Origin: Candidatus Methanoperedens sp. BLZ2
GTDB lineage: Archaea; Halobacteriota; Methanosarcinia; Methanosarcinales; Methanoperedenaceae
Assembly: GCF_002487355.1 (NCBI RefSeq)
Contig: NZ_NTMG01000023.1
Location: forward strand, 1-64,000
Reading direction: 5' to 3'
Length of the DNA stretch: 64,000 bases
A program made the position numbers and the translations under genes. This document shows, one piece after another, positions 13,034-35,424 of this stretch (position 1 is its first letter; each line of letters opens with the position of its first letter). The notes under the pieces are model-generated. The model was not told where the DNA came from. It was given only the letters and a program-made list of their open reading frames with translations, and did no database searches.

Positions 13034-13048
13034 TTGAGGTTTCCACAG

Positions 13049-15856: not shown

Positions 15857-16080
15857 GCGTGATCTTCTGCTCTTCAAGGATCATCGCCACATTGCCTTTT
15901 GAAAACTTGTCGCCTTTTCTTGACCTTTATTTTAAGGATCATGCCCTGCATGCTTGCGGTTATGGCTCTATCCATCACTTTCGGGCGCTCTGTTTCTGCC
16001 GGGTGGACAGACCATTCCTCCACCTATCATCTTGACATTGGATAGATAGCCATCAAATTCAACTTTGAACTCCGTATGTG
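15857..16080 (-). pseudogene. Decayed biotinyl (lipoyl-like) domain of pyruvate carboxylase subunit B
   Basis: Read leftward with frameshifts, the strand gives EFKVEFDGYLSNVKMIGGG, then after one shift KVMDRAITASMQGMILKIKV, then after another GDKFSKGNVAMILEEQKI. This matches the C-terminal biotin carrier domain of PycB-type proteins (T-A-x-M-Q-G-M-I-L... KxGDxVxKGDV... LEAMKM), with the biotin-site motif decayed to EEQKI around the lysine. No start and no intact frame exist. It abuts a truncated CRISPR repeat at 16076. PycB would be the partner of the pycA 3 kb upstream. Confidence 0.5.
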
Positions 16081-16090
16081 CCTCTTGAAT
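16076..16090. repeat. Truncated CRISPR repeat at the trailer end
   Basis: ATGTGCCTCTTGAAT equals the last 15 nt (plus-strand sense) of the type-A repeats. The remaining 22 nt are missing and replaced by the PycB remnant. A 35-nt spacer (16091-16125) separates it from the first full repeat, so a 83rd repeat existed and was cut. Confidence 0.75.
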
Positions 16091-16125
16091 TACCCACTCA
16101 GTGATCACTATTGTCCTGTTCACGA

Positions 16126-19100
16126 GTTTCAATCCTTGTTTTAGTGGATGTGCCTCTTGAATTCGATGCGATCTGATGAGGGTTCAGATTGTAGCCATGG
16201 TTTCAATCCTTGTTTTAGTGGATGTGCCTCTTGAATAGTCATTTTCAGGTTCGGCTTTTATTACTTCCTGAAGTTTCAATCCTTGTTTTAGTGGATGTGC
16301 CTCTTGAATAATAGAGGATAAACTATGGCAACATGCATAATACGTTTCAATCCTTGTTTTAGTGGATGTGCCTCTTGAATTCACCTCCTCTTACTTTAGA
16401 ACTTTAGAAGTAAGTAGTTTCAATCCTTGTTTTAGTGGATGTGCCTCTTGAATTCTATAGTATTTCTTTTTGGCCGTTCAATTATACGAGTTTCAATCCT
16501 TGTTTTAGTGGATGTGCCTCTTGAATGAGAACAGCAGCGATCCGTCGAACGAATAGATCCGTTTCAATCCTTGTTTTAGTGGATGTGCCTCTTGAATAAA
16601 AAGAGTAGGCTTAGCCTACTCGTATAGGACGCCGTTTCAATCCTTGTTTTAGTGGATGTGCCTCTTGAATGAATTCACAGTCATTTACTGGAGCAGTTGC
16701 ACCAGGTTTCAATCCTTGTTTTAGTGGATGTGCCTCTTGAATACAGTAACTTTTACCTGAACCGGTCTTTCAACAAGAGTTTCAATCCTTGTTTTAATGG
16801 ATGTGCCTCTCGAATGGAAAACCCCCGTATCATGGAAAACATATAAATTAGTTTCAATCCTTGTTTTAATGGATGTGCCTCTCGAATGTACTCTTCTTGC
16901 CGTGAGGGAGTTGAGTTATGTAGTTTCAATCCTTGTTTTAATGGATGTGCCTCTCGAATGTGCATGTACAGTATCCATCTGCGCCCTGTCTGAAGTTTCA
17001 ATCCTTGTTTTAATGGATGTGCCTCTCGAATAATAGCTTTTACTGCTGCGCCAAGAGCTGTTACTAGTTTCAATCCTTGTTTTAATGGATGTGCCTCTCG
17101 AATCAAACGCCCACCAGTCATCATCAGATATTCTTTTTAGTTTCAATCCTTGTTTTAATGGATGTGCCTCTCGAATCTGAGAAAGAATATGATAGAGTTC
17201 TCGAAGCTGTATTGTTTCAATCCTTGTTTTAATGGATGTGCCTCTCGAATTCTATAACAGTATGTCTTGCTGAATCAATAATAGAGTTTCAATCCTTGTT
17301 TTAATGGATGTGCCTCTCGAATAGCAATAACCTTTAATAGTACAACACAAAGTACCACCGTTTCAATCCTTGTTTTAATGGATGTGCCTCTCGAATAATG
17401 TTTATCCGGTTTTGGTATTAGCCAAAAAACATGTTTCAATCCTTGTTTTAATGGATGTGCCTCTCGAATAGCATTTACTGCGTCAGCTATATATCCGTCC
17501 GCTATGGTTTCAATCCTTGTTTTAATGGATGTGCCTCTCGAATAAAGATATATCTCTACCAACAGTATCAACTAAAGTGTTTCAATCCTTGTTTTAATGG
17601 ATGTGCCTCTCGAATTATATGCTTGTTGGTTCGACTGCTTTGTCGGATGATAGTTTCAATCCTTGTTTTAATGGATGTGCCTCTCGAATGAGAGAGAGAG
17701 AGAGAAAGAGATAGTTTCTTTATAGTTTCAATCCTTGTTTTAATGGATGTGCCTCTCGAATACTATAATAGCTATTCTTTAGCGAAAAGAAGGCTTAAGT
17801 TTCAATCCTTGTTTTAATGGATGTGCCTCTCGAATCCACTACTTCCGCCCTGCCATGCTCCGGACCGAATGTTTCAATCCTTGTTTTAATGGATGTGCCT
17901 CTCGAATCCGAACACTCTATCCTTAAGGACTTATTCGCTCCAGTTTCAATCCTTGTTTTAATGGATGTGCCTCTCGAATCTAAGTTCAACTCTCTTTTTA
18001 CCTTTGGTGTATGGTTTCAATCCTTGTTTTAATGGATGTGCCTCTCGAATTCAACTCATTCTAACGACATACTCAGAGCAAACAAGTTTCAATCCTTGTT
18101 TTAATGGATGTGCCTCTCGAATAAGATGAATTTGTTGATTCTGAGCAAGCGTTATTTGGGTTTCAATCCTTGTTTTAATGGATGTGCCTCTCGAATAGTA
18201 TTATCTCAGTTGTACCAGCAGTATTTAATTAGTTTCAATCCTTGTTTTAATGGATGTGCCTCTCGAATTATTGTTAGTGGAAGTGTGGGCATATTAATCT
18301 CCTAGTTTCAATCCTTGTTTTAATGGATGTGCCTCTCGAATTGTGTTCACTGAACATAGTCCATAGGACTTAAAGCAAGTTTCAATCCTTGTTTTAATGG
18401 ATGTGCCTCTCGAATGAAAAGTATCGGAAGGAGATAGACCTCAAAGTCAGTTTCAATCCTTGTTTTAATGGATGTGCCTCTCGAATTTTCCTCGCAGCGA
18501 GCATCCCTTCCCGAATATTATCGTTTCAATCCTTGTTTTAATGGATGTGCCTCTCGAATAATTGACCGTTACAAATGTTGCAGCCTTTGCTGGTGGTTTC
18601 AATCCTTGTTTTAATGGATGTGCCTCTCGAATACATGACGACACAGGCGCACGCAGCAATCAATTATCTGTTTCAATCCTTGTTTTAATGGATGTGCCTC
18701 TCGAATCGTCTGGACAGGCTTGGACGGGATCCTGTAGAATGTTTCAATCCTTGTTTTAATGGATGTGCCTCTCGAATATAGATTGCCATCTACGCCCACT
18801 CCTCGATCACTGGTTTCAATCCTTGTTTTAATGGATGTGCCTCTCGAATACTCTCTGGCTCATCGACACCAAAAAAGCCCTTGGTTTCAATCCTTGTTTT
18901 AATGGATGTGCCTCTCGAATCTTTTCTCCTGTATTTGATGACGATGATGAGATGAGTTTCAATCCTTGTTTTAATGGATGTGCCTCTCGAATTCGTCTGG
19001 ACAGGCTTGGACGGGATCCTGTAGAATGTTTCAATCCTTGTTTTAATGGATGTGCCTCTCGAATATTTGGAGAGTTATAACCTCATTTTTCAGGAGAAGT

Positions 19101-22037
19101 GTTTCAATCCTTGTTTTAATGGATGTGCCTCTCGAATTTGCCTTCGATGTGGTGAGCATTTTGTCACTATCTGTTTCAATCCTTGTTTTAATGGATGTGC
19201 CTCTCGAATGCAATTGCGATCATCATTGCTGCTGTGCTTGGAAAGTTTCAATCCTTGTTTTAATGGATGTGCCTCTCGAATTATCAACATATTATTCAGC
19301 CATACATGGTATGAGTTGTTTCAATCCTTGTTTTAATGGATGTGCCTCTCGAATTTGCCTTCGATGTGGTGAGCATTTTGTCACTATCTGTTTCAATCCT
19401 TGTTTTAATGGATGTGCCTCTCGAATTTTATTATTGTTCTGTTATTCGGAGCCATATTAAGTTTCAATCCTTGTTTTAATGGATGTGCCTCTCGAATCAA
19501 AAAAAGCCTTTGGAGACATTTTTAATGGCACAGTTTCAATCCTTGTTTTAATGGATGTGCCTCTCGAATTTCGTTCCTGGAGCTGCAAGATTGAAGGGAT
19601 TTCCGTTTCAATCCTTGTTTTAATGGATGTGCCTCTCGAATCCCAGGTAGCAGTCGCGTCTGTGAATTCATGAAAAGTTTCAATCCTTGTTTTAATGGAT
19701 GTGCCTCTCGAATTATATTAACTTAAATAATAGATTAAGAAAAACAAGTTTCAATCCTTGTTTTAATGGATGTGCCTCTCGAATCTGAGATACTTGCAGC
19801 AGGGCGAACATATCTTCAGTTTCAATCCTTGTTTTAATGGATGTGCCTCTCGAATTACAAAATTACGCGTTCGCAGGGTGAATTAAGACAGTTTCAATCC
19901 TTGTTTTAATGGATGTGCCTCTCGAATGATTACACCTTCATATCTCTGCTGAAAAGTTGTGAGTTTCAATCCTTGTTTTAATGGATGTGCCTCTCGAATA
20001 TTTTTGGTGGTGTCGCGGGGCTTAGCAGCGTCGGATGTTTCAATCCTTGTTTTAATGGATGTGCCTCTCGAATTAACGATTGATGTCAACCAGTCTTGAC
20101 TGTGGCGGGTTTCAATCCTTGTTTTAATGGATGTGCCTCTCGAATAGAGATCACCGTAACGGTTATTACGAAAATTAATTTTGTTTCAATCCTTGTTTTA
20201 ATGGATGTGCCTCTCGAATCCTTTAGCCATTTTAATCATCTCTATTTTTCTTTGGGTTTCAATCCTTGTTTTAATGGATGTGCCTCTCGAATTAGATTGA
20301 AGATTCAACAACGGAAGCACTGTTTGCAGTTTCAATCCTTGTTTTAATGGATGTGCCTCTCGAATTGGATAGCCAGATCCAAAAAATAATTTCTATTGTG
20401 TTTCAATCCTTGTTTTAATGGATGTGCCTCTCGAATTTTGTTATGGCTGCATTAGAATTATACAATATCCTGTTTCAATCCTTGTTTTAATGGATGTGCC
20501 TCTCGAATCTTCCGGGATAGAGGTACGGAAAATAACCAGCTTGGGTTTCAATCCTTGTTTTAATGGATGTGCCTCTCGAATTATATCTGCAACATTCCCC
20601 GCAGCGCTTACACCTGGTTTCAATCCTTGTTTTAATGGATGTGCCTCTCGAATCTACAATTCACGCATGCTCTAACATCGCCATGTAGTTTCAATCCTTG
20701 TTTTAATGGATGTGCCTCTCGAATAAGGGTTCATGATGTGCATGAAGGATGAAGAGTTGTTTCAATCCTTGTTTTAATGGATGTGCCTCTCGAATAATTT
20801 GAAACAGTCATTACAGCGAATACGGCAGCTTTGTTTCAATCCTTGTTTTAATGGATGTGCCTCTCGAATTGAATAATGAAAAAGAGACTATCCCGGAAGA
20901 TCAGTTTCAATCCTTGTTTTAATGGATGTGCCTCTCGAATTGACTTCTATCACAGCATCAGCGGTATCTGAAAGCGGTTTCAATCCTTGTTTTAATGGAT
21001 GTGCCTCTCGAATTCTTGTTTTCCAGATAGTACAAGCAGTATTTAGTCCGTTTCAATCCTTGTTTTAATGGATGTGCCTCTCGAATATGCTTCCGCTTCT
21101 TGTTTTCATCCCCAGAAATATGTTTCAATCCTTGTTTTAATGGATGTGCCTCTCGAATAGGTTTGATTCCCATAAAAAATAAATAAGATAGTTGTTTCAA
21201 TCCTTGTTTTAATGGATGTGCCTCTCGAATCTGACAAGATGGCAAACAACTATAAGGCTTATGTTGGGTTTCAATCCTTGTTTTAATGGATGTGCCTCTC
21301 GAATCTTATACAATTAGGGCATCTATGAATGATGCTTTGTTTCAATCCTTGTTTTAATGGATGTGCCTCTCGAATACTATAGGGAACTTCTCATTTATGC
21401 AGTTGAATATTAGTTTCAATCCTTGTTTTAATGGATGTGCCTCTCGAATTATAGGGAACTTCTCATTTATGCAGTTGAATATTAGTTTCAATCCTTGTTT
21501 TAATGGATGTGCCTCTCGAATTTCAATTCGGAAGATTCGCAACACGTAGAAAAGAGTTTCAATCCTTGTTTTAATGGATGTGCCTCTCGAATCTTATACT
21601 GTAGGGAAATCTATTTTGATCGTTGGAGGTTTCAATCCTTGTTTTAATGGATGTGCCTCTCGAATGGTATTATCCCCATTTTTCATTATTTTTTCATTAG
21701 TTTCAATCCTTGTTTTAATGGATGTGCCTCTCGAATATTTCACCTCATAATTTTAAAGCGGAAAGGTAGGAGAGTTTCAATCCTTGTTTTAATGGATGTG
21801 CCTCTCGAATATTAGATTCAAAATTATATTATCCAGAAAATATTAAGTTTCAATCCTTGTTTTAATGGATGTGCCTCTCGAATTACGTTTCTGCTTCCAG
21901 TATATCCAAAAAATAGGGCATCATCGTGTTTCAATCCTTGTTTTAATGGATGTGCCTCTCGAATCATCTATTTTTGAGATACTACAATCTGGAAAAGGAT
22001 GTTTCAATCCTTGTTTTAATGGATGTGCCTCTCGAAT
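16126..22037 (-). CRISPR. Type I-B CRISPR array, 82 full 37-nt repeats, transcribed leftward
   Basis: I counted 82 full repeats with starts from 16126 to 22001, mean period about 72.5 nt, and 81 spacers of about 34-37 nt. On the plus strand each repeat begins GTTTCAATCCTTGTTTTA, so in crRNA sense it ends in ATTGAAAC, the classic archaeal type I 5' handle; this and the cas genes on the right set the transcription as leftward. The first nine repeats from the left (16126-16742) have AGTGG and CTCTTGAAT; the other 73 (from 16779) have AATGG and CTCTCGAAT. Three spacers occur twice. Long ORFs inside are artefacts of the repeat. Confidence 0.98.
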
Positions 22038-22145: not shown

Positions 22146-23062
<917 letters not shown>

Positions 23063-23087: not shown

Positions 23088-24056
23088 TTATTTTATCAGG
23101 CTATTCGCTATGCTGTGGCATTCCATCTGTATAGTGTTCCTTATCTTGACATTGCGCCCGTTATAGTCAATATCCTTATCAAGCATTTCATTGATCGCTG
23201 TTATTAAAACCGCTTTACCCCCCTTATTCATGTACAAGCCTCCGGGAATCTTATCAAAAAGCCCTTCATGCACCTGTTTTTTTGAGAAAAGGTTCATAAC
23301 CGTTCTATCAACATGTATCCTGAAGATCTCAATAAGGTCAAAAACAAAGCTTTTCTTATTGTAATTATCCGTATGCAAAAAGCCCATATAGGGATCAAGT
23401 CCTGCTATTATGCATCCTTTCTCGACCTGCGAATACAGGACACCGTAGCCGTAATTAAGAAGGCAGTTAAAAGCATCTTGCGCGGGATCGCGGCTTCTGC
23501 CGTTGAATTTCCAGGCATCCGGCATGATATTGCTAAGGGCATTGAAATAATTGAGTGATGCCATACCTTCAGTCCCCATGATAGAGCCGCGCTTTTCATC
23601 AAGTGATCCTTTCATGCCAGCAAGATTTTCTCTAAGTTCTGCAATTTTCGCAATGTTTGGCTCGATCAGCTCTTTATCATCCGGCCTATTCTTTTTCAGG
23701 TCTTTCAGGAAATCAAGCTGGCTATCGATCTTGCGCACTATCCAGCCGCGCGCAAGATTAAATCCCAGGACGGACGCTTCGGCTTCAAGCTGACGGCGTC
23801 GGATAAGGGTCGTGCTGCCAAGTTTTGAGTGCCATACTCTTCCGAAAGGATTTCCATGGAAATCCAGGAAAACAATATCAATATTGTTCTCGACAGCGAA
23901 CTCGATCGCATCCGTGCTTATGGTCGCTGATGTGGTTATGAGGATGCTGTCAACCTTATCTGCCGAGACTTCAAAGCTCTTGTCATCGTTCTTTATGAGA
24001 AAGCAGTTCTTTTCCTTTTTGAGATACGCACCGCGCGTGTTTATTACGAGCTGCAT
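23088..24056 (-). CDS. cas1: CRISPR integrase Cas1
   Basis: 322 residues, normal length. The N-terminal beta domain (1-80) has the Cas1b-like IVFLDFHGNPFGR; the helical domain holds the metal ligands E163 (GTEGMASLNYF), H228 (GFLHTDNYNKKS) and D240 (FDLIEIFR). It inserts new spacers at the leader end of the array. It follows a small nucleotidyltransferase gene by 6 nt and precedes cas2 on the same strand. All catalytic residues are present, so adaptation is probably functional. Confidence 0.96.
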   Translation of the reverse strand: MQLVINTRGAYLKKEKNCFLIKNDDKSFEVSADKVDSILITTSATISTDAIEFAVENNIDIVFLDFHGNPFGRVWHSKLGSTTLIRRRQLEAEASVLGFNLARGWIVRKIDSQLDFLKDLKKNRPDDKELIEPNIAKIAELRENLAGMKGSLDEKRGSIMGTEGMASLNYFNALSNIMPDAWKFNGRSRDPAQDAFNCLLNYGYGVLYSQVEKGCIIAGLDPYMGFLHTDNYNKKSFVFDLIEIFRIHVDRTVMNLFSKKQVHEGLFDKIPGGLYMNKGGKAVLITAINEMLDKDIDYNGRNVKIRNTIQMECHSIANSLIK

Positions 24057-24062
24057 TAATAA

Positions 24063-24563
24063 TCAGCCACTTTTAAGATGATCATTTTGAGGTTTGTAAG
24101 ATACCTGTCTTCTTGTTTCAAGCCATTTCCTCCTTGTTGTGGTCATATCCGTTGCTGTTTTGAATCTGTTGCCGGTTATCCTGTGCAACATATCTTCCCA
24201 ATTTTTCCTGAAATGATAAAGATAATAAGAAATAGAGGGCTCATTGCCATATATCACCCTGTAATTTTCTATAACATCCATTTTAACATACAGGGGCAGA
24301 TCTTCAAAGACCTTTATATCATATCTGCCGCCGACTTTTTGAAAGATGCTTTTCAAAATTCCGGTCGTTCGAGGTTTGATGAGGCAGATATCGATATCTG
24401 AACGTTCATTTGCAGTATTCATAGCATAGGAACCGTAAAGTAAGATGCCTTGCGCTTCGTCTTTTATGAATTCGAATTCTTTCTTCAGCCTTATTATAAG
24501 TTCTTCAGCATCCATATTGGTTGACTTTTGATAATTTTGTTTCATTATATCATGAGTTATCAT
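24063..24563 (-). CDS. Stand-alone minimal nucleotidyltransferase within the cas operon
   Basis: 166 residues. Pol-beta-type nucleotidyltransferase core: GILLYGSYAMNTANERSDID, with G44-S45 and the metal-binding D56/D58. The C-terminal third is helical and basic (RRKWLETRRQ). It resembles MntA-type antitoxins, which AMPylate HEPN toxins, but no HEPN gene is directly beside it; the hepT gene is on the other side of cas6. It lies 6 nt from cas1 and 5 nt from cas6, so it is fully embedded in the operon. Initiation may be at M7 or M17. Link to CRISPR function is inference. Confidence 0.8.
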   Translation of the reverse strand: MITHDIMKQNYQKSTNMDAEELIIRLKKEFEFIKDEAQGILLYGSYAMNTANERSDIDICLIKPRTTGILKSIFQKVGGRYDIKVFEDLPLYVKMDVIENYRVIYGNEPSISYYLYHFRKNWEDMLHRITGNRFKTATDMTTTRRKWLETRRQVSYKPQNDHLKSG

Positions 24564-24568
24564 ATTTG

Positions 24569-25261
24569 TCAGCTTTGGTATATATTATTAAAGTTCATTT
24601 CAGGATCATTTTTCATGACAACTGAGCCAAAACCCCTTGAAACTGATTTTCCCAGACCGAGATGATCGGGTATGATGAAGTTTGCATGGAAACCTCCGAT
24701 AAAGGTCATTACATTCACGTCTTTCAACCTGCGTTTCCTGATATTTACCTGGACATCACATTTTATTTTATCAGGAACCTGGTAATTCAGCGATTTCGAC
24801 ATGGACAGCAGGTTTCCAGTGAGTGTTTTTCTCAAGAAATCAAACCTTTCCCCGCCATCCTTCAAACCGTAATATCTCATATAATTCTCCTGGTTAAGAG
24901 CAAGCCACGGTGTTGCGAACTCGTAAGAATGTATCTTCTCTGAAAGCCCGAATTCCTGGTTCTTTACGCAGATGCCCCTTTCAACGATCTCATAAACCTC
25001 ATCCCCAAGTTTTATCTCATCGTATTTATCATAGACTTGTTTTAAAACTTCGGCGCCGTCATTGATGCCGATGACCATGGGCGCGCCGTTTATCATTTTG
25101 TATTGTACCAGTGGATAGCTGTAAATGAATTTATCGGCTTTGTGCTGATGGAGAAGGGCGTATTCGTTGAATTTAGTGGCAAAGAAACCGCGAAGCTGTG
25201 TTGATGTGCCTTCTATGTGGCGGTTGGATGCAAGGGTGAGTGTGAAGGTTTTGAGGTTCAT
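24569..25261 (-). CDS. cas6: CRISPR repeat endoribonuclease Cas6
   Basis: 230 residues, two RAMP ferredoxin-like halves, with the C-terminal glycine-rich loop LGLGKSVSRGFGSV that identifies Cas6. It cuts the array transcript 8 nt upstream of each spacer, which agrees with the ATTGAAAC handle in the repeats. A likely catalytic His is in SNRHIEG near residue 15, though the site is not certain. It lies between hepT (40 nt away) and the nucleotidyltransferase gene rather than next to cas8b, as in many I-B loci. Confidence 0.88.
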   Translation of the reverse strand: MNLKTFTLTLASNRHIEGTSTQLRGFFATKFNEYALLHQHKADKFIYSYPLVQYKMINGAPMVIGINDGAEVLKQVYDKYDEIKLGDEVYEIVERGICVKNQEFGLSEKIHSYEFATPWLALNQENYMRYYGLKDGGERFDFLRKTLTGNLLSMSKSLNYQVPDKIKCDVQVNIRKRRLKDVNVMTFIGGFHANFIIPDHLGLGKSVSRGFGSVVMKNDPEMNFNNIYQS

Positions 25262-25301
25262 ATCTGTTTAGATTTTGATGCGATATGTTTCATATTTTTT
25301 A

Positions 25302-25733
25302 TCAGGTTTCATTTTCTATATACCTGTCAATGATTTCTATAAACTCATAAAAATCCTTCAATTCCAGGTTTAGATAAGAATATGACCTCGAATCATCCAC
25401 ACGACCATATTGATGTACAAGCAGGTTTCGAAATCCTACAAGTTCTTCAAGCCTGGTGGAAAGTGACACTGGTAATACTTGATTTTCTGCAAGCTTCCTT
25501 ATGCTGTCTTTACTATCCGACGGTATTCCAAATCCTTTCTCAGATATGATCAAATTGCAGATATCAAGCAAATTCTCACTTGCCAGCTGGAAAGCACGTT
25601 CACATGCTCGTTTCCTGAGACCATTATTCAGGTAATCCTCTTCTTGTTCCGGGAGATATTCCTCAAGTTCCCTCAGATAGTTCTCCATTTCATCTATCTT
25701 CTCAAATAATCTATCTTTATCCACGATCATCAT
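25302..25733 (-). CDS. hepT: HepT-like HEPN toxin (RNase)
   Basis: 143 residues, all-helical HEPN/DUF86 domain. The active-site motif R102-x4-H107-x-Y109 (FRNLLVHQYG) matches HepT toxins, where the tyrosine is the residue AMPylated by the partner antitoxin. The start overlaps the end of the upstream nucleotidyltransferase gene by 4 nt. Free HepT cleaves RNA (tRNA in studied cases). It is embedded in the CRISPR-Cas locus, upstream of cas6 on the same strand. Confidence 0.88.
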   Translation of the reverse strand: MMIVDKDRLFEKIDEMENYLRELEEYLPEQEEDYLNNGLRKRACERAFQLASENLLDICNLIISEKGFGIPSDSKDSIRKLAENQVLPVSLSTRLEELVGFRNLLVHQYGRVDDSRSYSYLNLELKDFYEFIEIIDRYIENET

Positions 25734-26176
25734 CCCAATCTGGCTCTAACGCGTTCCATTACGCGCTTATGGTATTCCCCGGTGAGCCTTTTGTATCGTT
25801 CATATTCCATATCATTGATCTTTGAAAGTGTTAATAGGTGATACATGTCCTGCGTGTATAGCACCTTCCCTTCAAGAAAAATCCTTTTACGAATATAAAC
25901 TGGCAATTCATCTATGAATGAAATATCGATATTGTCCGGGACAGAATTGTTAAGTGATATTCTCTCTTTAAGTGTAATCTTAACTTCCGGTTTTGGAATG
26001 ACACAGATATCTATATCGCTATTTTCTTTTTCAGTTCCTCTTGCCTTTGATCCAAAAAGAATGATCGAGTGAACAAGTCCTGAACTCCTGAGCTTAATGA
26101 TCAACTCGTCGAGGTCTATGTTCGATTTTTTTTGATCGTTTACTTTTGGCACATGAACAATTTGATTTTTCATCAT
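25730..26176 (-). CDS. mntA: MntA-like nucleotidyltransferase antitoxin
   Basis: 148 residues with the minimal nucleotidyltransferase core LFGSKARGTEKENSDIDICV: G42-S43, D54 and D56. Members paired with HepT silence it by AMPylation (type VII toxin-antitoxin). It overlaps hepT by 4 nt and comes first in the pair. GAGG stands just before the start and an A/T-rich TATA-like stretch at 26190-26203, so this gene may supply the promoter for mntA-hepT-cas6-NTase-cas1-cas2-cas4. Confidence 0.88.
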   Translation of the reverse strand: MMKNQIVHVPKVNDQKKSNIDLDELIIKLRSSGLVHSIILFGSKARGTEKENSDIDICVIPKPEVKITLKERISLNNSVPDNIDISFIDELPVYIRKRIFLEGKVLYTQDMYHLLTLSKINDMEYERYKRLTGEYHKRVMERVRARLG

Positions 26177-26434
26177 TATTTCCTCTGCTTTATAATTATT
26201 TAAACACTGGCTCTTTTATTCTGTTCTACTAATTATTCACTCTCGATCTGTTTCAGTAACGGCGCTGGGGGTTGTGACCCCCAGACCCCGGGGATGCGCC
26301 GCCGTTGGCGGGGTTTTCTGGTGATCGATGGTTGTTTGGAAATCTGTCCTGGTATTTCTTGTTTATTTTTTGATGCACCATAGTTATCAGTTTTGTTAAC
26401 TTTGGTGTATATGATCAGGTGAAAAATCGAACGA

Positions 26435-26512
26435 TAGAACACGGATTGCGCGGATGACGCGGATGCACACGGATTTGTGATAATCCGCGAGATCTGTGTC
26501 ATCCGTGTTCTA
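26435..26512. repeat. Inverted repeat with internal CGCGGAT units
   Basis: TAGAACACGGAT (26435-26446) pairs perfectly with ATCCGTGTTCTA (26501-26512). Inside, CGCGGAT occurs at 26449 and 26458 and its complement ATCCGCG at 26483-26489, so a long cruciform or RNA hairpin can form. Similar ACACGGAT/GCGGATG intergenic sequences are, from memory, widespread in archaeal and bacterial genomes. Confidence 0.7.
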
Positions 26513-26666
26513 TTGGAACTACGGAGGTTAGTATTAATGTTCACATCTCCTCGCATAGTTTATTTTAAAAAATATATCATTTAATTGTGTTAAAAATCCG
26601 GCGCTATCGCTTGCAGGCGCAGGTTTCATAGAGAAATAAGGCAGCAACAAATAGTCTAAAACAAAC

Positions 26667-26692
26667 CGCAGATGAACGCAGATGAACGCAGA
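26667..26692. repeat. Short tandem repeat of CGCAGATGAA
   Basis: Two exact 10-nt units CGCAGATGAA and a partial third lie in the intergenic gap upstream of mntA. Non-coding. Confidence 0.7.
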
Positions 26693-26820
26693 TTTGTTAA
26701 ATTGCTGGTAGGTTTGCCTGATCATATGGTTTCTCCGTATGCTCTTTGCGCTGCCTGTCCGCATGTACCGCGCCTGGGGGATGCGAGGAGAGGGGGGCGG
26801 GATGAAGTGAAAGATCATAA

Positions 26821-29256
26821 TTAAAACAGTAAAGTTCCTCCTGAACCTGGTATAAATCCAGTTTCTAAATCATACCTATCTTTTAATTCTTCTATTGAAA
26901 CATAGGCTATCCCAGTTTCATTTTCAGGCTTAGGTGCCTTATTCTTGGGGATTGAAATTACATATTCATAGAAATCTTTTTTTATTTTTAAGAATTCATT
27001 TTTTCTTTCAATTGGATTTTTTAGTTCTTTTATCACCTTATATTGATTCCATACAGCTTTAGCAAAATAATCCAATTCGATAAATACATCGATTTTATAG
27101 TAGTCCTCTTGAATAAGTTTAAAGTTTTTATATAACTGTTCAAATTCTAATTTTTGGACAAATGAAAGAATCTTATTAGATACATCATCACTTCCACTGT
27201 CTTTGATTTTTTTAAAATAATTATTGCTTAAGGTTAAAAAGTAATTTTCATTTATTCTTTCAGGAGCTTCTTTGAGGACTTCTTTAGTTTTATCGATCAG
27301 AAAAGGTGAATAGATATATCTATAATATTCTTTATTCTCATCTTTCAGAATAAATAATTTTACCAGCCCTTTCTTCCCCTCTGAATAATTTCGATTGCAT
27401 CTTCCAGAAACTTGGTTTATTGAATCCATTGTTGAAAAATCACGATAAACAGTATCAACGTCAATATCCACACCAGCTTCAATAAGTTGAGTGCTGACAA
27501 TTATTTTTCGTGCTTTATTATTTCTTATATCGTTTATTCTATCAATACGTTGGCAAGGAGTAATGTTTGTGGAAAGATAATACAATTTTATGCCTGTAAT
27601 TTTTAATGATTCCAAATATTGATAAACACTTTTTGAAGAATTTATTGTATTAAGTACAATAAGAAAATTATTATCTTTATTTTCTTCAACATCACTTCTT
27701 ATGATTTCTTTAAAATTATTGAGAAGCAAAGGTTGAAGGTTTGGTATTAATTCAATTCTATCAAATTTATTAAAATAATATTTTTTATTTGTTACAAGTT
27801 CAACAATTTCTTTCTTGCTTTCATCAAAAATCAATGGCTGCGTCGCAGTCACAAAAATAAAATAAGTGTTGAAGCATTTTGAAAATAATGAGATAACTTC
27901 TTTGAATAAAAGCCAATATTCATGAGGAATTGATTGAACCTCATCAAGAATAACTATTGAATTTATAATGTTATGAAATTTTCTTAATGACCTATTTTTA
28001 TTTGAAATTAAAGAGTGAAAGAGTTGTATAAAAGTAGTTACAATTATTTCAGAGTTCCAGCCCTCAATTAGTAACAAACTTTCAGAAGTATCGTAATCAA
28101 CATTTTCATTGGTTTCATAAAAAATATCAGATAAATGGTGATGCTTCAATAAAATATCGGTTGTTGGAGTATAGCCCTGAACTTTTTTAAATACATCTTC
28201 AAAAACCTCGAAATTCTGATCTATAATACTTAAAAAAGGAAGTGAATATATAATTTTAGGCATGAAATTTCTTTCATTTATAATCTTATCCCTCAGTTTT
28301 AAAGAAAAAGATAATACAGTAAGTGTTTTTCCTGTTCCAGTCGGAACATTCAATGAATAAATATTATTATCTAAACTTAAGGTTTTTAATTCTCCTATAA
28401 CATCTGAATAAATCTCATTTCTGATAATATCCATTTTATTTTTTGGTTTATCATAGCCTTTGATTATCCGATAATTATCAACCAAATCTAAAGGAATCGC
28501 ATTGTTACGGTCAATTTCTTGAATACCCGATGCATCTAATTTGTCGGAATTTAAAAGAATAGAATAAAAAAGTTGAGTCAAAAGATAATATTGTAATCCA
28601 GGCGCATCCCCTTGGATGGATTTCTCATTTTGCAGATGATCAGAAAAAGTTCTTCTATTGCTTTTGATTTCTTTGATAATGCTTTTATAAGTACTAATAA
28701 ATTTAATTATATCAATATTTGGTAATAATTCCAAATAAATCAGTTTGAGCTCTTCTAAACACAGAGAATTAATTTGCCTGTTTAAGATTTCTACATTTTT
28801 ATCATCTAAGTCTAAGATTTCATTTGTTACATCTCCTAAATTTCCATGATGTTTTTTTACTGCAAAATAACCTAACATCGGTAAAAATTCAAATTTTAAA
28901 TCTTTAAGATATTCTTTTATAACAAAGTAAGTAAATAACGAAGAAAGTAGTCCATGTCTTGTTTCAGGATTATTTTTAAGCGAACTTTTTCGTTTTTCGT
29001 CTTTTTCATTTATATAATTTTGAAAATTAATTGTTCCTTTTCCAAAATCATGTGAAACCCCTGTTATAAATGAAAAGTTGGCCAAGATTTCATCATTTAA
29101 ATTGAAAATATTCGAGTTGATTTTCTTGGATTGTATAGTATTTTTACAAAATAATCCCACATTTCTAAGGTGATCAATTAAAAATTTATCCGGATGGGAT
29201 TTTAGATTAAAGAAAGATGATTGATTCATTAGTTTCCAATTCCCAATATCTATCAA
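26821..29256 (-). CDS. cas3: CRISPR effector helicase-nuclease Cas3
   Basis: 811 residues, fused HD nuclease and SF2 helicase. The HD domain (about 20-245) has an upstream His (DHLRNVG, H29), H69-D70 in SHDFGKG and H101. Walker A is PTGTGKT at 305-311, the DExH box is VILDEVQSIP, motif III FVTATQP and motif VI QVSGRCNR. Cas3 unwinds and degrades DNA marked by Cascade. Its start overlaps cas5 by 50 nt; M10 (29229) is an alternative start. All motifs look intact. It is notably A/T-rich like the neighbouring Cascade genes. Confidence 0.96.
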   Translation of the reverse strand: MIDIGNWKLMNQSSFFNLKSHPDKFLIDHLRNVGLFCKNTIQSKKINSNIFNLNDEILANFSFITGVSHDFGKGTINFQNYINEKDEKRKSSLKNNPETRHGLLSSLFTYFVIKEYLKDLKFEFLPMLGYFAVKKHHGNLGDVTNEILDLDDKNVEILNRQINSLCLEELKLIYLELLPNIDIIKFISTYKSIIKEIKSNRRTFSDHLQNEKSIQGDAPGLQYYLLTQLFYSILLNSDKLDASGIQEIDRNNAIPLDLVDNYRIIKGYDKPKNKMDIIRNEIYSDVIGELKTLSLDNNIYSLNVPTGTGKTLTVLSFSLKLRDKIINERNFMPKIIYSLPFLSIIDQNFEVFEDVFKKVQGYTPTTDILLKHHHLSDIFYETNENVDYDTSESLLLIEGWNSEIIVTTFIQLFHSLISNKNRSLRKFHNIINSIVILDEVQSIPHEYWLLFKEVISLFSKCFNTYFIFVTATQPLIFDESKKEIVELVTNKKYYFNKFDRIELIPNLQPLLLNNFKEIIRSDVEENKDNNFLIVLNTINSSKSVYQYLESLKITGIKLYYLSTNITPCQRIDRINDIRNNKARKIIVSTQLIEAGVDIDVDTVYRDFSTMDSINQVSGRCNRNYSEGKKGLVKLFILKDENKEYYRYIYSPFLIDKTKEVLKEAPERINENYFLTLSNNYFKKIKDSGSDDVSNKILSFVQKLEFEQLYKNFKLIQEDYYKIDVFIELDYFAKAVWNQYKVIKELKNPIERKNEFLKIKKDFYEYVISIPKNKAPKPENETGIAYVSIEELKDRYDLETGFIPGSGGTLLF

Positions 29257-29929
29257 CTTTTGCTGTTATTCCTTTTCCTTGAACACCGTTTCTTTCAAAC
29301 ATAACTTTTCTGTACTCCTTTAATGATCTATCCAGTTCCATTTCCGTTGGAATGGTTTCAGAAAAATATTCTCCATCTTCCAATTTGATTTCTTTGATCG
29401 AGTCAGTAGGGAGAGCAGAATCTAATTTTATAAACTCAGTGGATGATTTTTCTCTTATCGCTTTTTCTCCAATGAATTCAAAATTAGCAATATGTTCGGT
29501 GATTCCTAGACAGGGGGTATAGACGCATTTATGGTGCAAAAGCATAGAATTTACTTTGTTAAATATAATTGGATCTATATGATAGAAATATATTCTATAT
29601 TTTGCATCTTTCACAAATTCGAACCTTATTTGTGTTCGAGGGCTGTGGGCGCCTTTTTTGATTGGAATGAAATAATCATCCTTTGTGTTAATCAGATTTT
29701 CAGCTAATCTGACCTTTTTAATCGGATTCAGAATTCTAACTGCAATCTGCGCCTGTTGTTTTGAGAAATATTTCAAATATTCATCTTTTGGAAGACCTAA
29801 GATAGCCCCTATAAGCCCACTAATTGCTGTTCTTGGTGGAATTGAAAAAGAAAGAGGCGATGTTGTAGTATAGTATTTTCTAAAATGTGCATACTCACCC
29901 CAAACATCGAATACCAATATTTTATCCAT
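29207..29929 (-). CDS. cas5: Cascade subunit Cas5 (type I-B)
   Basis: 240 residues. N-terminal RAMP fold KILVFDVWGEYAHFRKYY followed by the Cas5 signature PPRTAISGLIGAILGLP. It binds the crRNA 5' handle and contacts Cas7.1 in Cascade. The gene lies 5 nt after cas7 and overlaps cas3. Length is typical for the Cas5h/5b branch. Confidence 0.95.
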   Translation of the reverse strand: MDKILVFDVWGEYAHFRKYYTTTSPLSFSIPPRTAISGLIGAILGLPKDEYLKYFSKQQAQIAVRILNPIKKVRLAENLINTKDDYFIPIKKGAHSPRTQIRFEFVKDAKYRIYFYHIDPIIFNKVNSMLLHHKCVYTPCLGITEHIANFEFIGEKAIREKSSTEFIKLDSALPTDSIKEIKLEDGEYFSETIPTEMELDRSLKEYRKVMFERNGVQGKGITAKVDRYWELETNESIIFL

Positions 29930-29934
29930 ATACC

Positions 29935-30978
29935 CTACGATGATAACTGCAGCGCTGGAATTCCAGTGGTTTTCAAGGCTTCATTAATCGTGATTTCTTT
30001 ACCTTCTAATTCAAATCTTGCTCTGTCATCAATTTGATATTCAACATTTTGAATTAAATCCTTTTTGTTTTTTAGGACATCGATTATTTTTGTAAGATTT
30101 ATCTTAACTTGAGATATGTCTCTCAACTCTTCATCAGGAACTTCTTTTACCAATGAAATCATACTATTGAGGTCCCCAATGTGGTAATTATTCTCTTTGT
30201 AATTCACTTTTATAAGCAGCCTCGGAACTTGACCCACTTTTGATCTGGATATCAAATTTTTTGTACCATTCCATATACCATCCAGAAGAAACTTTACATC
30301 ATCATCGGTAAGTTTTGTGTCTTTTGCAGCATTTTCATTTATGATTCCATAGAAGTTGATTAATGAGTAAAACAGAAAATCTTCTTCACGAAATGTTTTT
30401 TGCTCAGCACCCTTTTTTGAAGCGAATGCTCCAGTACCTCTGAAGTGTTTTATATATACTTTATGTAACGATCTACCTATCTTAAATTGAACTGGTCCAG
30501 TAAAAGTTAATGAGCTTGTTTGTTCCTTGCTTTCAGTTTGCTCCTTAATATCTTCTTTAGGTTTTTCGGTCTTTTTTCCTTTTTTAACCTTCAATTCCAA
30601 TGGAATTGTTGCTCCGAATAATCTAACGTCTATGCACTTCTTCAAGATTTCAGCGGTAGCTATTTCTTTTTGTTGCTGAAGTGTTTTGCCTTCTAATTCC
30701 GCAGAGGGAATATGTTTTAAGAAGTCCGATGCCCTCAACTTTGCGTCCTGAATATGTCCTTCTTCATCAGAGATCTCCCTCACAAAAATATCTTGTTTCT
30801 TAAAATTATATAAATAATCTCGGATAGTTCTCTTAAGCCTGACATCTGTTATAAGGTTGAGTCCAGTTTCTTCGTCAATTCTTGGTTTATTTTCATCCAA
30901 AGGATCTCCGTTTGGATTTGCATCTTTCACATCGTACAAAAATACGAGTTCTGACCTATTTGTAATTATATTGCTCAT
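29935..30978 (-). CDS. cas7: Cascade backbone subunit Cas7 (Csh2-like)
   Basis: 347 residues. Opens with SELVFLYDVKDANPNGDPL, the Csh2/Cas7 hallmark, and has TDVRLKRTIRDYL. A Lys/Glu-rich insert (about 125-150: VKKGKKTEKPKEDIKEQTE) is a loop outside the core. Several copies coat the crRNA spacer. It overlaps the end of cas8b by 23 nt and is followed by cas5. Confidence 0.95.
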   Translation of the reverse strand: MSNIITNRSELVFLYDVKDANPNGDPLDENKPRIDEETGLNLITDVRLKRTIRDYLYNFKKQDIFVREISDEEGHIQDAKLRASDFLKHIPSAELEGKTLQQQKEIATAEILKKCIDVRLFGATIPLELKVKKGKKTEKPKEDIKEQTESKEQTSSLTFTGPVQFKIGRSLHKVYIKHFRGTGAFASKKGAEQKTFREEDFLFYSLINFYGIINENAAKDTKLTDDDVKFLLDGIWNGTKNLISRSKVGQVPRLLIKVNYKENNYHIGDLNSMISLVKEVPDEELRDISQVKINLTKIIDVLKNKKDLIQNVEYQIDDRARFELEGKEITINEALKTTGIPALQLSS

Positions 30979-32899
30979 GTGTCTCCTCCGTTGTTGATCT
31001 AAATAGATTTGAGAGATTCATACCTAATACAAAATAAAAACTTATTTCATCATTTGACATTTTCCACCCTTCTCCAGATTGAACCATATATTTCCCAATT
31101 AAAAATTCCAGATTTTTATAATAATTTTTTCCATATTCTTCAAGCTTGTTTTGAATTTCGGGCAACAATTTCTTCACATGTTTTTCATCTAATTTCAATC
31201 CCTGAAGTTTTATTCTAAATGGCGTAGCTTTTCGATCATTGTATTGAATATTTAATAAATATTGCGTCAATACACCTTCTAAGAATATTGCTTTTTTCGA
31301 ATCTTTATTAAAGAAATCTGAAAATTCTTTAAACAAGGTATTTACTTTCTCCTCTAACTGTAAATTTGTTCCTTGCAGTAGGTTTGTGATGCTCTTTTCA
31401 TTCATATTTTTACCTCCGTTAAAATTGTCAAGAAGTTCTAACTCATTTAAATAAATAAGAAGTTGAAAACCTTTTAAGGTGAGATATTTTGTTGATTTTG
31501 TTTCATCTTGAAAATCTCTTCGAATTTTCTTAATTATTCCCCACATTAAAAATGAATAATCAATTTTCTTATTTGTAAAAATTTTATTTGTTATTTCAAG
31601 AAAATAAGTGCTTAAATCCTGTTCTATATTGCCCTTACCCTTAGAAGGATATTTTACAGCTTGAACGGTATTATCGATTGAACTCAAATCTGATTCCATT
31701 TTCCCCTTTCCTTTAGGATTGGGAAAAAATGAAAAAATGTTTCCAAAGTTGAATTCCAATGATTTACCTTCTTTCAATATGTATTCACTAAAAATGCCAA
31801 TTTTATCAACTTTTTCTTTGGCTTGGAAAAGTTTCTTTAATCGAGAAGGTAAAATATCTTCGATATATAGTAAAATCCTGAATGCAGAGTTATCTTTTTC
31901 ATAAATTAATAGATTATTATTAAAAAAATTTTCTTGTTCTGCAAGAATACTTAATATATCATCTTCATTAGCATCTAAAAGTCGAATATATTTCTTTTCA
32001 AACTTTGGATCTTTTCCTTTAAAATCCTCTAAAATTCTAAAAATGTCAACTCTTTTATTTTGATTTAAAAGTTTTGGAATGACAAAATAATCGAACCCAT
32101 AAAATCTGAATTTTGAATTTTCAAAGATGTATTTTTTCCCTCCTTCCAATGTTAAGGCACAATTCAAACATACAGGGTAATTTTTCCATGCCAATGATTG
32201 ATCGAATCCACCGCTAATAAATCCAGGCTTATCAACGGTATAGAATTCATAGGTTCCGACAAAACCAAATACCTCTTCGGACTTTTTTCTACAAACTGAA
32301 CAAACTTTATTAGTGGATTTGGATTCCTTTCCATATTTTTGATAATAACCTTTCGAAGTCTTTTCAAGTAAAATTCTTCTGAAAACTGGGAAGTCTCCGA
32401 TATACTGTTTTTCGGGAGAATAAATGAACACAGTTATTATGCTTGGATCCTTTTTATCAAGAGTATTATATTTAATTGTTAAATCCGATAAAATTGCATC
32501 TGTATTTGATTTTAAACAGTCGTTTAATCTCTTAAGAAATTCAATTTCCTCACCTATAAAGATGATTTGATTTTCTTTGGTAATATTCGTAAACCATTTA
32601 ATGGTCTTATTAGAAAAGGTCTTTTCAATATCTGTAATCCTGCTTGTGGGTGTTAAATCAGTTCCATTAGGAGCCCCTTGCTTATACAGATATTGCTTTA
32701 TCTTGCTTTTGCTGTATTCTTCTAATTCGATACCAACATATCCAAAACCATTTTCATTTTTATTAACTCTAATACCAAGAATATGTTTATAAGTGCCATT
32801 ACTATCTGGATCTTCAATTACGATATCCGTAGGGTCTTCTAATCGTCTTCCAGCCTTTTCAAGCGAGTATTCTCCGATCTCTTTTACAGCCTCAATCAA
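30956..32899 (-). CDS. cas8b: Cascade large subunit Cas8b (Csh1/TM1802 type)
   Basis: 647 residues. The zinc finger of the Csh1 family is visible as C200/C203 (VCSVCRKK) and C244/C247 (YPVCLNCALTLEGG). The rest is helical, as expected for the subunit that reads the PAM and recruits Cas3. It is the first gene of the cas8b-cas7-cas5-cas3 block. Its presence with cas7, cas5, cas3 and cas6 sets the subtype as I-B. A/T-rich TTATATATC at about 33065-33073, on the complementary strand, could be its promoter. Confidence 0.93.
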   Translation of the reverse strand: MIEAVKEIGEYSLEKAGRRLEDPTDIVIEDPDSNGTYKHILGIRVNKNENGFGYVGIELEEYSKSKIKQYLYKQGAPNGTDLTPTSRITDIEKTFSNKTIKWFTNITKENQIIFIGEEIEFLKRLNDCLKSNTDAILSDLTIKYNTLDKKDPSIITVFIYSPEKQYIGDFPVFRRILLEKTSKGYYQKYGKESKSTNKVCSVCRKKSEEVFGFVGTYEFYTVDKPGFISGGFDQSLAWKNYPVCLNCALTLEGGKKYIFENSKFRFYGFDYFVIPKLLNQNKRVDIFRILEDFKGKDPKFEKKYIRLLDANEDDILSILAEQENFFNNNLLIYEKDNSAFRILLYIEDILPSRLKKLFQAKEKVDKIGIFSEYILKEGKSLEFNFGNIFSFFPNPKGKGKMESDLSSIDNTVQAVKYPSKGKGNIEQDLSTYFLEITNKIFTNKKIDYSFLMWGIIKKIRRDFQDETKSTKYLTLKGFQLLIYLNELELLDNFNGGKNMNEKSITNLLQGTNLQLEEKVNTLFKEFSDFFNKDSKKAIFLEGVLTQYLLNIQYNDRKATPFRIKLQGLKLDEKHVKKLLPEIQNKLEEYGKNYYKNLEFLIGKYMVQSGEGWKMSNDEISFYFVLGMNLSNLFRSTTEETHEQYNYK

Positions 32900-33181
32900 T
32901 TCAAATCCTCCTCTTTCATAGGTACTCGCCCGCCCTCTTCCGCGCCCTCATTTCCATAATCCCGTCTCATCTTCACCCTTCCATCTTCCGACCGCGCATT
33001 CCACGAACGCCTTGCACCCTTTCGCAGCGTTCGCAGCCTGATACTATCCAAACGCCCCATCTCCTTATATATCTTTGGAAAGCGATGTGAAAGTGTTCTT
33101 GTGACTTTTGTGGTTATTAATTTCCAGAAAATGATTCAAAACATACTGTTTTACAGATTTAAATTCGTAAAAATAGTTGCA

Positions 33182-33427
33182 TTACCTGTAAACTTTCTTC
33201 CTGTTTTCAAACTTATGCAGGATCATAATATCGCCGTTTAGCTCATATAAAATCCGAAATGGTGGTATTCTAACACTACGAAGGGGAAAAAGCTCATATT
33301 TTAGTGGTTTTCCGATTTCCGGATTATCGATAATCTTCTGGATTAGCTTTTTTATCCTTTTTTGGATTTTCTTATCTCTTATCTTCCTTATATCTCCCTT
33401 AAACTCCTCTGTATAAATTAATTTCAT
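33182..33427 (-). CDS. RelE/ParE-type toxin
   Basis: 81 residues: LIYTEEFKGDIRKI, a basic helix pair KKIQKRIKKLIQKI, then NPEIGKPLKYELFPLRSVRIPPFRILYEL, the strand core of the RelE superfamily, ending in HKFENRKKVYR. Such toxins cut mRNA on the ribosome or poison gyrase. It overlaps its antitoxin by 4 nt. The pair lies just upstream of the cas8b promoter region. Confidence 0.85.
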   Translation of the reverse strand: MKLIYTEEFKGDIRKIRDKKIQKRIKKLIQKIIDNPEIGKPLKYELFPLRSVRIPPFRILYELNGDIMILHKFENRKKVYR

Positions 33428-33642
33428 ACCCAGACTTCATCAAGTTCATCAATAGTTTTCAGCTCATGTATTCTGCCTGCTTTTACATCATTTCTGGAGC
33501 TTTTTATCCCTTTCATTAGCTTTTCATCATTCAATATTTCGATCGTTTCTATCAAAGCTTCCAGTTCGTCTTTTAATTTCTTAAGATTATTAAAAGCATC
33601 AAAGCTTATTACCATCTTGTTTTGTGTAATGGTCTCTGGCAT
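33424..33642 (-). CDS. RelB-like antitoxin
   Basis: 72 residues, helical and acidic, with a C-terminal DVKAGRIHELKTIDELDEVW that matches the toxin-wrapping tail of archaeal RelB-type antitoxins. It is the first gene of the pair, overlapping the toxin gene by 4 nt. Identification rests mostly on position and the tail. Confidence 0.7.
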   Translation of the reverse strand: MPETITQNKMVISFDAFNNLKKLKDELEALIETIEILNDEKLMKGIKSSRNDVKAGRIHELKTIDELDEVWV

Positions 33643-33781
33643 AAATATCGACTATCTTCAATCTGTCTGTTGATATATATAGACTAATGGTTCTTCAAGC
33701 GATGAAGTCAAGAGAATATCTCGGAGTATATTAAAAAATATGTGCAGGGTCGGGATTTACCCGATCCCTCAAAAAAAATCT

Positions 33782-34777
33782 CTACTCTGGATTCAACCAC
33801 TTCATCATAGAACGAAGCTCTTTTCCGACCTTCTCAACCTGGTGCTCGTTCTCCTGTCTCTCAAGAGCATTGAGGACCGGCCTGTTGGCTCTGCTTTCAA
33901 GAACGAATTCTTTTGCAAATTCCCCGCTCTGGATCCTGCGAAGCGCCTCTTTCATGGCCTGTTTAGACAGTTCATTGATGATCTTTGGCCCGACGGTAAG
34001 GCCGCCGTACTCGGCAGTATTTGACACATAGTACCACATCTTGCTCAATCCGCCTTCATGAATGAGGTCAACTATGAGTTTCATTTCATGGAATGTTTCA
34101 AAATAAGCGATCTCAGGCTGGTATCCTGCTGCAACAAGTGTCTCGAATGCGGCTTTCATCAGACACGTCACTCCGCCGCAAAGATCAACCTGCTCACCGA
34201 AAAGATCGGTCTCTGTTTCTTCCTTGAATGTTGTTTCAAGCACGCCTGCTCTTGTTGCCCCAATTCCTTTTGCATAAGCCATGCCTATGTCCCTTGCTTT
34301 TCCCGTTGCATCCTGGTATATCGCAATGAGTGCGGGAACACCGTTGCCTTCTGTATATGTCCTGCGCACAAGGAAACCCGGACCTTTTGGTGCGACCATT
34401 ATTACATCAACGTCCTTTGGCGGAACGATCTGGTTATAATGGATATTAAATCCGTGCGAGAAACATAATGCTTTGCCCTTCTTCATATTCGGGGCGATCT
34501 CAGAAGCATAAATGGCACCCTGTATTTCATCGGGTACGAGCATCTGGATGACATCAGCTTTTTTTGCTGCTTCAGACATTGTCATGACCGTCAGGCCATC
34601 GGCTTTTGCCTGGGCCCATGATTCCCCATCTTGCCTGACACCGACAATTACATTCAGTCCTGAATCCTTCAGGTTCTGCGCCTGCCCTGCTCCCTGGCTG
34701 CCATAACCAATAACTGCAATCGTTTTCTTTTTCAATATTTTTGAATCTGCATCCTTGTCATAGTATATTTTAACCAT
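33782..34777 (-). CDS. ilvC: Ketol-acid reductoisomerase (class I)
   Basis: 331 residues. NADPH-binding [20 protein letters not shown], then the all-helical knotted domain with metal ligands in [12 protein letters not shown] and the [17 protein letters not shown] segment. It converts acetolactate to dihydroxyisovalerate in valine, leucine and isoleucine synthesis. Other ilv genes are not in the window, so it is a solitary gene here, transcribed away from ribH. Length and motifs are normal. Confidence 0.96.
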
Positions 34778-34882
34778 AATAGATACCTTCTTTGGCTTTC
34801 ATTACATTAATAAGGGATATAAATGTTTCACAATCCCTTTTTGTTCACAACACAAAATGAACTCTTACAAAACTGTAACGAA

Positions 34883-34922
34883 AAATATATAGATGTTCCA
34901 AATAATATAACCAATCAGGTGC
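34883..34922 (+). promoter_or_regulatory. Promoter and RBS of ribH
   Basis: AAATATATAG at about 34883-34892 is a good TATA box, and CAGGTG (34917-34922) precedes the ATG at 34927 by 4 nt. The spacing of about 35 nt leaves a very short leader. Confidence 0.5.
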
Positions 34923-34926
34923 CAAA

Positions 34927-35337
34927 ATGAGTATTAAATTAGGATTTGTTGTTTCAGAATTCAACCGTGATCTTACTATCCAGATGGAGACGCTCGGAAA
35001 AGAACATGCGGCGTTCCTTGGCGCCACAGTTGAAAAAATATATTATGTGCCTGGAGTTTTTGACATGCCCCTGGCCGTAAAAAAAATGGCGCAGGACAAA
35101 ACAATAGACGCAGTAGTAACCATTGGCTGCGTTATACAGGGGGCAACAAAACACGATGAAATCGTGATCCAGCATGCTTCAAGGAAAATCGCTGATCTTG
35201 CGCTTGAATTTTCAAAACCCATAACCCTGGGGATATCCGGTCCTGGGATGAGCAGGCTTGATGCCCATGAACGAGTGGAATATGGCAAAAGGGCGGTTGA
35301 AGCTGCTATTAAAATGGTAAAGATGCTACAACAGTAA
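34927..35337 (+). CDS. ribH: 6,7-dimethyl-8-ribityllumazine synthase
   Basis: 136 residues of the lumazine synthase fold: LGFVVSEFNRDLTIQME, VPGVFDMPLAVKKMA, and the phosphate/catalytic segment TIGCVIQGATKHDEIVIQH with the catalytic His. It joins ribulose-derived dihydroxybutanone phosphate to the ribitylamino pyrimidine in riboflavin and F420-related flavin supply. It is transcribed alone from a clear promoter. Confidence 0.95.
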   Translation: MSIKLGFVVSEFNRDLTIQMETLGKEHAAFLGATVEKIYYVPGVFDMPLAVKKMAQDKTIDAVVTIGCVIQGATKHDEIVIQHASRKIADLALEFSKPITLGISGPGMSRLDAHERVEYGKRAVEAAIKMVKMLQQ

Positions 35338-35424
35338 AACAACAGTAAAGCACAATACATTAAATTTGATAATAGTTCAATTTGAGTCATTGGAATTATG
35401 ATTCATTTATAGTTACCCAGCATA

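Follow-up and report, generated by a model that had tools for sequence, protein, structure and literature searches.

The 64,000-nucleotide stretch of the methane-oxidizing archaeon Candidatus Methanoperedens sp. BLZ2 analyzed here (the window) carries a type I-B CRISPR-Cas locus with nucleotidyltransferase and HEPN genes at the junction between its effector and adaptation genes. On the minus strand, cas8b-cas7-cas5-cas3 is followed by mntA-hepT-cas6-NTase-cas1-cas2-cas4 and then by the CRISPR array (Table 1). The subtype is indicated by Cas8b/Csh1, Cas5h and Csh2, all above the NCBIfam cut-offs, and Cas3, Cas6b and Cas1-2-4 are also present. The gene positions given in the first-pass annotation were reproduced, all on the minus strand, and so were the gaps of 5 nt (cas6 to NTase), 6 nt (NTase to cas1) and 644 nt (cas3 to mntA). 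A further 40 nt separate hepT from cas6, and the reading frames of MntA and HepT overlap by 4 nt. The two repeat variants of the array differ at two positions, the nine-copy variant forming the end distal to cas4. Past the array, at a distance of about 1.8 kb, lies a TnpB-like IS605 OrfB transposase (13034-14269). The window also holds another HTH-nucleotidyltransferase gene (48693-49259), and a tandem of 102-nt direct repeats (50672-52339, at least 14 copies of 34 codons each), which probably encodes a repeat protein.

Table 1. Features of the CRISPR-Cas locus and of comparable loci; positions refer to the window unless another contig or locus is named.
Feature	Position	Strand	Evidence or remark
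ParE/RelE-like toxin (33182-33427) and partner ORF (33424-33642)	33182..33642	-	PF05016 5.2e-11 (toxin)
cas8b	30956-32899	-	
cas3	26821-29256	-	
Replaced effector cassette cas8b-cas7-cas5-cas3	26821..32899	-	93% DNA identity to L192, 80-86% to G009
644-nt gap	26177..26820	.	old intergenic DNA with multicopy dispersed repeats
TATA element TTTAAATA	26197..26204	-	20-28 nt upstream of the mntA start codon
mntA (module 1 antitoxin), minimal nucleotidyltransferase	25730..26176	-	PF18765 2.8e-14; GSKARGTEKENSDID plus third Asp
hepT (module 1 toxin), HEPN RNase	25302..25733	-	PF01934 1.8e-28; RNLLVHQY
cas6 (Cas6b)	24569..25261	-	PF17262/PF17955
NT2, orphan MNT antitoxin of module 2	24063..24563	-	PF01909/PF18765, about 1e-7; active site intact
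hepT2 scar	24057..24121	-	alignment against hepT2-keeping G019, G004, G002
cas1	23088..24056	-	PF01867 2.5e-80
cas2	22742..23035	-	PF09827
cas4	22146..22745	-	PF01930
CRISPR array	16053..22037	not assigned	at least 82 exact 37-nt repeats, two variants (73 + 9)
Type III locus of the same genome	L254:7310-12304 = contig C51:107309-112303; array from 12414		MNT-MNT-HEPN between csm6 and cas1
HTH-MNT + HEPN loci of G010 and G007	L276:1636-2645 and L274:7397-8247		

The mntA-hepT pair (module 1) is a genuine MNT/HEPN module, type VII-like and with both active sites intact. MntA exceeds its Pfam cut-off and has the complete GSx10DxD signature and the third Asp, and the R-x4-H-x-Y motif of HepT is unbroken, as first reported. 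The gene arrangement also fits type VII, in that the antitoxin is upstream of the toxin and the frames overlap. HepT scored 111.9 bits against the NCBIfam HepT model (cut-off 60), whereas MntA, with 56.1 bits, fell narrowly below the 60-bit equivalog cut-off of its model, and we therefore name the module type VII-like and do not treat MntA as a certified equivalog. The closest solved structures are those of the Shewanella oneidensis pair (HepT to 5YEP_B, 1.8e-11; MntA to 5YEP_A, 1.5e-4). Among the PADLOC models, none matched the HepT of the window and its MntA was matched weakly. No viral carriers of HepT1 or HepT2 were found in IMG/VR with single-protein queries, which reach close relatives only. 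Most comparisons of MntA1, HepT1 and the nucleotidyltransferase NT2 gave dN/dS values of about 0.1-0.2 (0.11-0.17 for HepT1 in comparisons involving the window), indicating purifying selection.

NT2, the nucleotidyltransferase between cas6 and cas1, had been described as a lone gene, but it is in fact the leftover antitoxin of a second pair (module 2). The closest relatives of this NT2, found in G019, G004, G002, G014, G022, G015 and G030, are each followed by HepT2, a second and distinct HepT (PF01934; RNFVVHRY or RNFIVHRY), which overlaps NT2 and abuts cas1. The HEPN partner is not intact in the window. What remains of hepT2 is roughly its first 10-12 codons, which lie within the end of NT2, and about its last nine, before cas1. 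DNA alignment of the cas6-cas1 interval shows that some 0.3 kb between them has been deleted, with a breakpoint near 24084-24090. The window NT2 is about 80% identical to the NT2 genes still paired with HepT2. Because hepT2 is gutted here and intact in relatives, NT2 is an orphan antitoxin, and we rejected the idea of a free-standing new cas gene on the same grounds. In pairwise comparisons its dN/dS is 0.16-0.25, similar to the 0.11-0.21 of paired NT2 genes, and relaxed selection was undetectable in these values. NT2 is thus either still in use or was orphaned only recently.

Similar genes recur at this position. Of 42 Methanoperedens cas1 loci, 17 have MNT/HEPN genes on the same strand and no more than 3 kb upstream of cas1; these loci are not independent, but at least five pair lineages are involved. 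The genome of the window has 33 Polbeta matches in 3.74 Mb, a density that predicts about 0.013 same-strand MNT genes for each 3-kb stretch upstream of a cas1, and yet both of its intact cas1 genes have an MNT gene upstream. Across the loci, the junction holds 44 MNT/HEPN ORFs in 121 kb and the rest of the same loci 2 in 478 kb, a ratio inflated by the use of junction genes as search seeds. The co-location seen in the first-pass annotation is therefore real and far above the Polbeta-density expectation (~1.3% against 17/42). A chance neighborhood, which had been left open there, is excluded by recurrence and position; MNT/HEPN pairs keep returning to the same seam.

Gene order proved conserved when compared across related genomes, and the type I-B loci of the genus form a graded series. 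Both modules are found in G019, G004 and G030, as well as in the window with hepT2 reduced to its ends, and as remnants in G003 and G020. Module 1 alone occurs in G012, G029, G001 and on the mis-binned contig L186, and module 2 alone in G002, G014, G022 and G015. Seven of the 20 loci have no pair (G005, two in G009, G016, G017, G025 and L192). In Methanosarcina, Methanolobus, Methanoregula and others, cas3, cas6 and cas1 overlap or nearly do so, without a pair. Ca. Argoarchaeum and two further Methanosarcinales assemblies have a different MntA-HepT, placed between cas3 and cas6; the start of the Argoarchaeum mntA overlaps the cas3 stop codon.

Nor is the position restricted to type I-B. In the second CRISPR locus of the window's genome, which is of type III (RAMP protein, Csm6), an MNT-MNT-HEPN (PF05168) set ends 9 nt before cas1. 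The same arrangement is present in G021 (L257) without the first MNT, and absent in G008 (L258). In G010 and G007, cas4-cas1-cas2 is directly preceded by an HTH-MNT and a PF05168 HEPN. The HEPN of G007 is broken, and the G010 HTH-MNT matches PADLOC PDC-M05A at 6e-28. Together with module 1, module 2 and the Argoarchaeum-type pair, these make at least five MNT/HEPN lineages, in three kinds of CRISPR locus and at the effector/adaptation junction, which we read as independent captures.

Module 1 has, on the simplest reading, spread between cas loci into one and the same slot. Its antitoxins form a single clade (support 97/94), whereas neither cas1 nor cas6 of the host loci is a clade (AU p 1e-42 and 4e-5). 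Across cas lineages, synonymous divergence is 0.31-0.53 for MntA1/HepT1 versus 0.54-0.84 for cas1/cas6 in nearly all locus pairs, although the lower GC3 of the module 1 genes could lower their figure somewhat. NT2 has nearly the same GC3, and its synonymous divergence between distant loci is not lowered. Together, the conflicting phylogenies and the lower divergence suggest transfer of the pair.

Where the modules decay, the toxin goes first. In G029, HepT1 is disarmed by an in-frame deletion of 21 residues, which removes R-x4-H-x-Y beyond its first residue. It is truncated in G020 (79 residues) and in G030 (92 residues), the latter a genome with several broken genes, where the break may be a MAG or assembly error. 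MntA is intact in all three. HepT2 was gutted by different deletions in the window, G003 and G020. G003 has its own internal hepT2 deletion plus frameshifts in NT2, and in G020 nearly all of NT2-HepT2 is gone. Among the loci compared, there was no case of an intact toxin beside a broken antitoxin. Loss of the toxin with retention of the antitoxin is the pattern expected if HepT really is toxic.

The effector genes have a history of their own. G020 has its locus at the same chromosomal place as the window, marked upstream by a KARI gene and by a ParE-like toxin and its small partner ORF. The two share about 90-93% identity on either flank, upstream at 32932-35385 and downstream over the stretch running from the 644-nt gap, via mntA, up to the array, disregarding G020's own insertions and deletions in the downstream part. 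Despite these matching flanks, the window's effector genes show no comparable similarity to G020. Their cassette relatives are instead L192 and G009, both of which are loci without any pair. A clean replacement of the effector cassette has thus taken place, with its limits just before cas8b and at the cas3 stop, and mntA-hepT remained beside cas6-cas1. It follows that the pair does not stabilize the effector.

The 644-nt gap was considered as a scar of this swap and rejected as such. Most of it is shared, as 26521-26801 and the stretch adjoining mntA are common to the window, G020 and G019, which puts the replacement breakpoint at the cas3 stop. Several short dispersed intergenic repeat families occupy 26260-26801; elsewhere in the genome they have 41 partial matches. 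One of these repeat types is also found between hepT and cas6 in G019, G004 and G029, and might have a role in recombination. On the other side of the cassette, the ParE/RelE-like pair lies about 280 nt upstream of cas8b on the same strand, so that TA-like pairs flank both sides. It is 94-98% identical in G020 and 69-74% in G009, and its partner ORF has no Pfam match. Six other loci (L072, L074, L075, L140, L143 and L173) have a decayed or duplicate cas6 behind cas3; these extra copies were apparently left behind by effector cassettes that arrived with a cas6 of their own.

The TATA element noted earlier at mntA is conserved across loci, being kept in seven module 1 loci and missing in G004 and G030. 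From its spacing, transcription likely starts at or very near the mntA ATG. All genes from mntA to cas4 are co-directional, with gaps of at most 52 nt. The conserved TATA and this tight packing in one direction support, short of proof, the shared transcript from mntA through cas4 proposed in the first-pass annotation, which is plausible.

The explanation that we rank first, and favor tentatively, is that the two modules, of which mntA-hepT is the intact one, act as addiction (stabilization) cassettes for the half of the locus made up of cas6, the adaptation genes and the array. In the family, the MNT AMPylates a tyrosine of HepT and thereby silences the RNase (Songailiene 2020 via PMC11676413; PMC11586414). 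MntA, produced from the same compact block as cas6-cas1-cas2-cas4, would do the same here and keep the RNase silent. Once the block is lost or silenced, antitoxin production would stop, and HepT that is freshly synthesized or has lost its modification would then cleave RNA and halt growth. Losing the crRNA-processing, adaptation and array half would thereby become costly, while the effector half would be unprotected and free to be exchanged. The first-pass annotation had proposed a guard over the CRISPR system. For the whole operon this does not hold, since the pair remained in place when cas8b-cas3 was exchanged and since toxins were repeatedly disarmed in loci that survive; for the cas6/adaptation/array half such a guard may exist. 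The repeated disarming without loss of the locus also implies that the addiction can be escaped. Furthermore, the modification silences a type VII HepT covalently, and losing the locus would therefore not necessarily free the toxin unless the AMP is removed or unmodified toxin is left. About one third of the I-B loci of the genus (7/20) seem to persist without a pair, which speaks against addiction. As for control of mntA by Cas-guided RNA in the manner of CreTA/CrePA, no repeat-like copy was found near the TA genes at up to 15 substitutions, and none of the 72 main-variant spacers scanned against the cas region stood clearly above shuffled controls.

The main rival, which we consider less likely, is that the pairs are selfish passengers at a recombination seam and do nothing for CRISPR. 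On this view the boundary between the effector cassette and the adaptation genes is often broken and rejoined, and MNT/HEPN pairs, which are abundant in these genomes, settle at it because insertion between genes does no harm. The precise swapping of effector cassettes up to the seam would fit, as would the decayed cas6 copies there in several loci, the dispersed repeats that flank the pair on either side in different genomes, the 33 MNT and 8 HepT matches in the genome, and the movement of module 1 between loci. Passengers would be less expected to sit where module 2 and the type III pair do, tight against cas1 on the adaptation side, away from the swap breakpoint. They would also not readily account for the co-direction of the MNT/HEPN genes with cas1 in the 17 loci, for the purifying selection on the pair genes, or for the fact that other TA types were not seen at the seam in this non-systematic survey.

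Two further readings rank below these. Back-up abortive infection, in which HepT is released upon infection, ATP depletion or viral shut-off and cuts tRNA or other RNA when CRISPR fails, has precedents: the HEPN-MNT pair beside the I-D locus of Aphanizomenon reportedly cleaves tRNA ends and is a proposed ATP sensor (Songailiene 2020 via PMC11676413), and MNT-HEPN is a predicted archaeal defense candidate, PDC-M05 (PMC12988326), with PADLOC matches in related loci. It leaves unexplained, however, both the fixed seam position and the repeated loss of toxins with the antitoxin kept, and the window HepT matches no PADLOC model; we consider it improbable. Least probable of all is regulatory domestication, in which an autoregulated promoter, or modification of, e.g., Cas6 by the NTases, tunes expression of cas6 and the adaptation genes and toxicity is secondary. 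It would make sense of the conserved TATA before mntA, at a place where other Methanosarcinales have cas3-cas6-cas1 overlaps, and of the toxinless persistence of the orphan NT2 with its active site intact and the low dN/dS given above. Yet the TATA was lost in G004 and G030 with the genes retained, NT2 itself was lost in G003 and G020, and the orphan may be too young for visible decay.

CRISPR loci are costly and built of modules, which raises the question of what keeps the part with the adaptation genes and the array in place during effector exchange. The natural series described here (both pairs, one, disarmed, none) offers a test bed for whether addiction stabilizes immune memory. If the addiction reading is true, CRISPR-associated addiction extends beyond the RNA-based CreTA. 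A broader version, possible though doubtful at present, would see MNT/HEPN pairs as a lineage-wide, protein-based lock that secures the memory half of CRISPR loci. At least five independent captures, at the effector/adaptation junction of at least three kinds of locus, would then leave effectors exchangeable but penalize the loss of cas6, adaptation genes and array, as a protein counterpart of CreTA.

To our knowledge, the HepT-MntA pair of Shewanella oneidensis has no link to CRISPR. It provides the structures nearest to module 1 (PDB 5YEP; PMC4621449), and both family motifs are present in the window genes. The phage-defense candidates PDC-M05/PDC-S09 (PADLOC; PMC12988326) likewise combine an NTase with a HEPN protein, but their match to the window MntA is weak and they do not match its HepT. 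Surveys have associated TA modules with cas loci in general and suggested safeguarding (PMC3936711; PMC10910872); the families named in their searchable text are Fic, PIN, MazE and others, and MNT/HEPN seam pairs are not mentioned in it. In the searchable literature, which included few subscription papers and is thus weak evidence of absence, we came across neither MNT/HEPN pairs positioned at effector/adaptation seams nor a tandem pair surrounding cas6, and no description of decay at such seams in which the toxin goes first. A CRISPR-adjacent HEPN-MNT pair (Aphanizomenon) and TA systems that safeguard CRISPR (CreTA) or lie within cas loci are already known. CreTA (type VIII; PMC12737573) is likewise a TA inside a type I cas operon and follows an addiction logic. 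It consists, however, of two RNAs, with a crRNA-like antitoxin that requires Cas6 and Cascade, whereas the window pair is made of two proteins, with no repeat-like guide found. The type VII pair of Aphanizomenon flos-aquae (Songailiene 2020 via PMC11676413) belongs to the same two families and lies near a I-D CRISPR locus. It is described as a single cyanobacterial case next to the locus, whereas the Methanoperedens pairs recur many times and lie within the operon, with effector genes on one side and adaptation genes on the other, and the window in addition retains a second pair reduced to its antitoxin.
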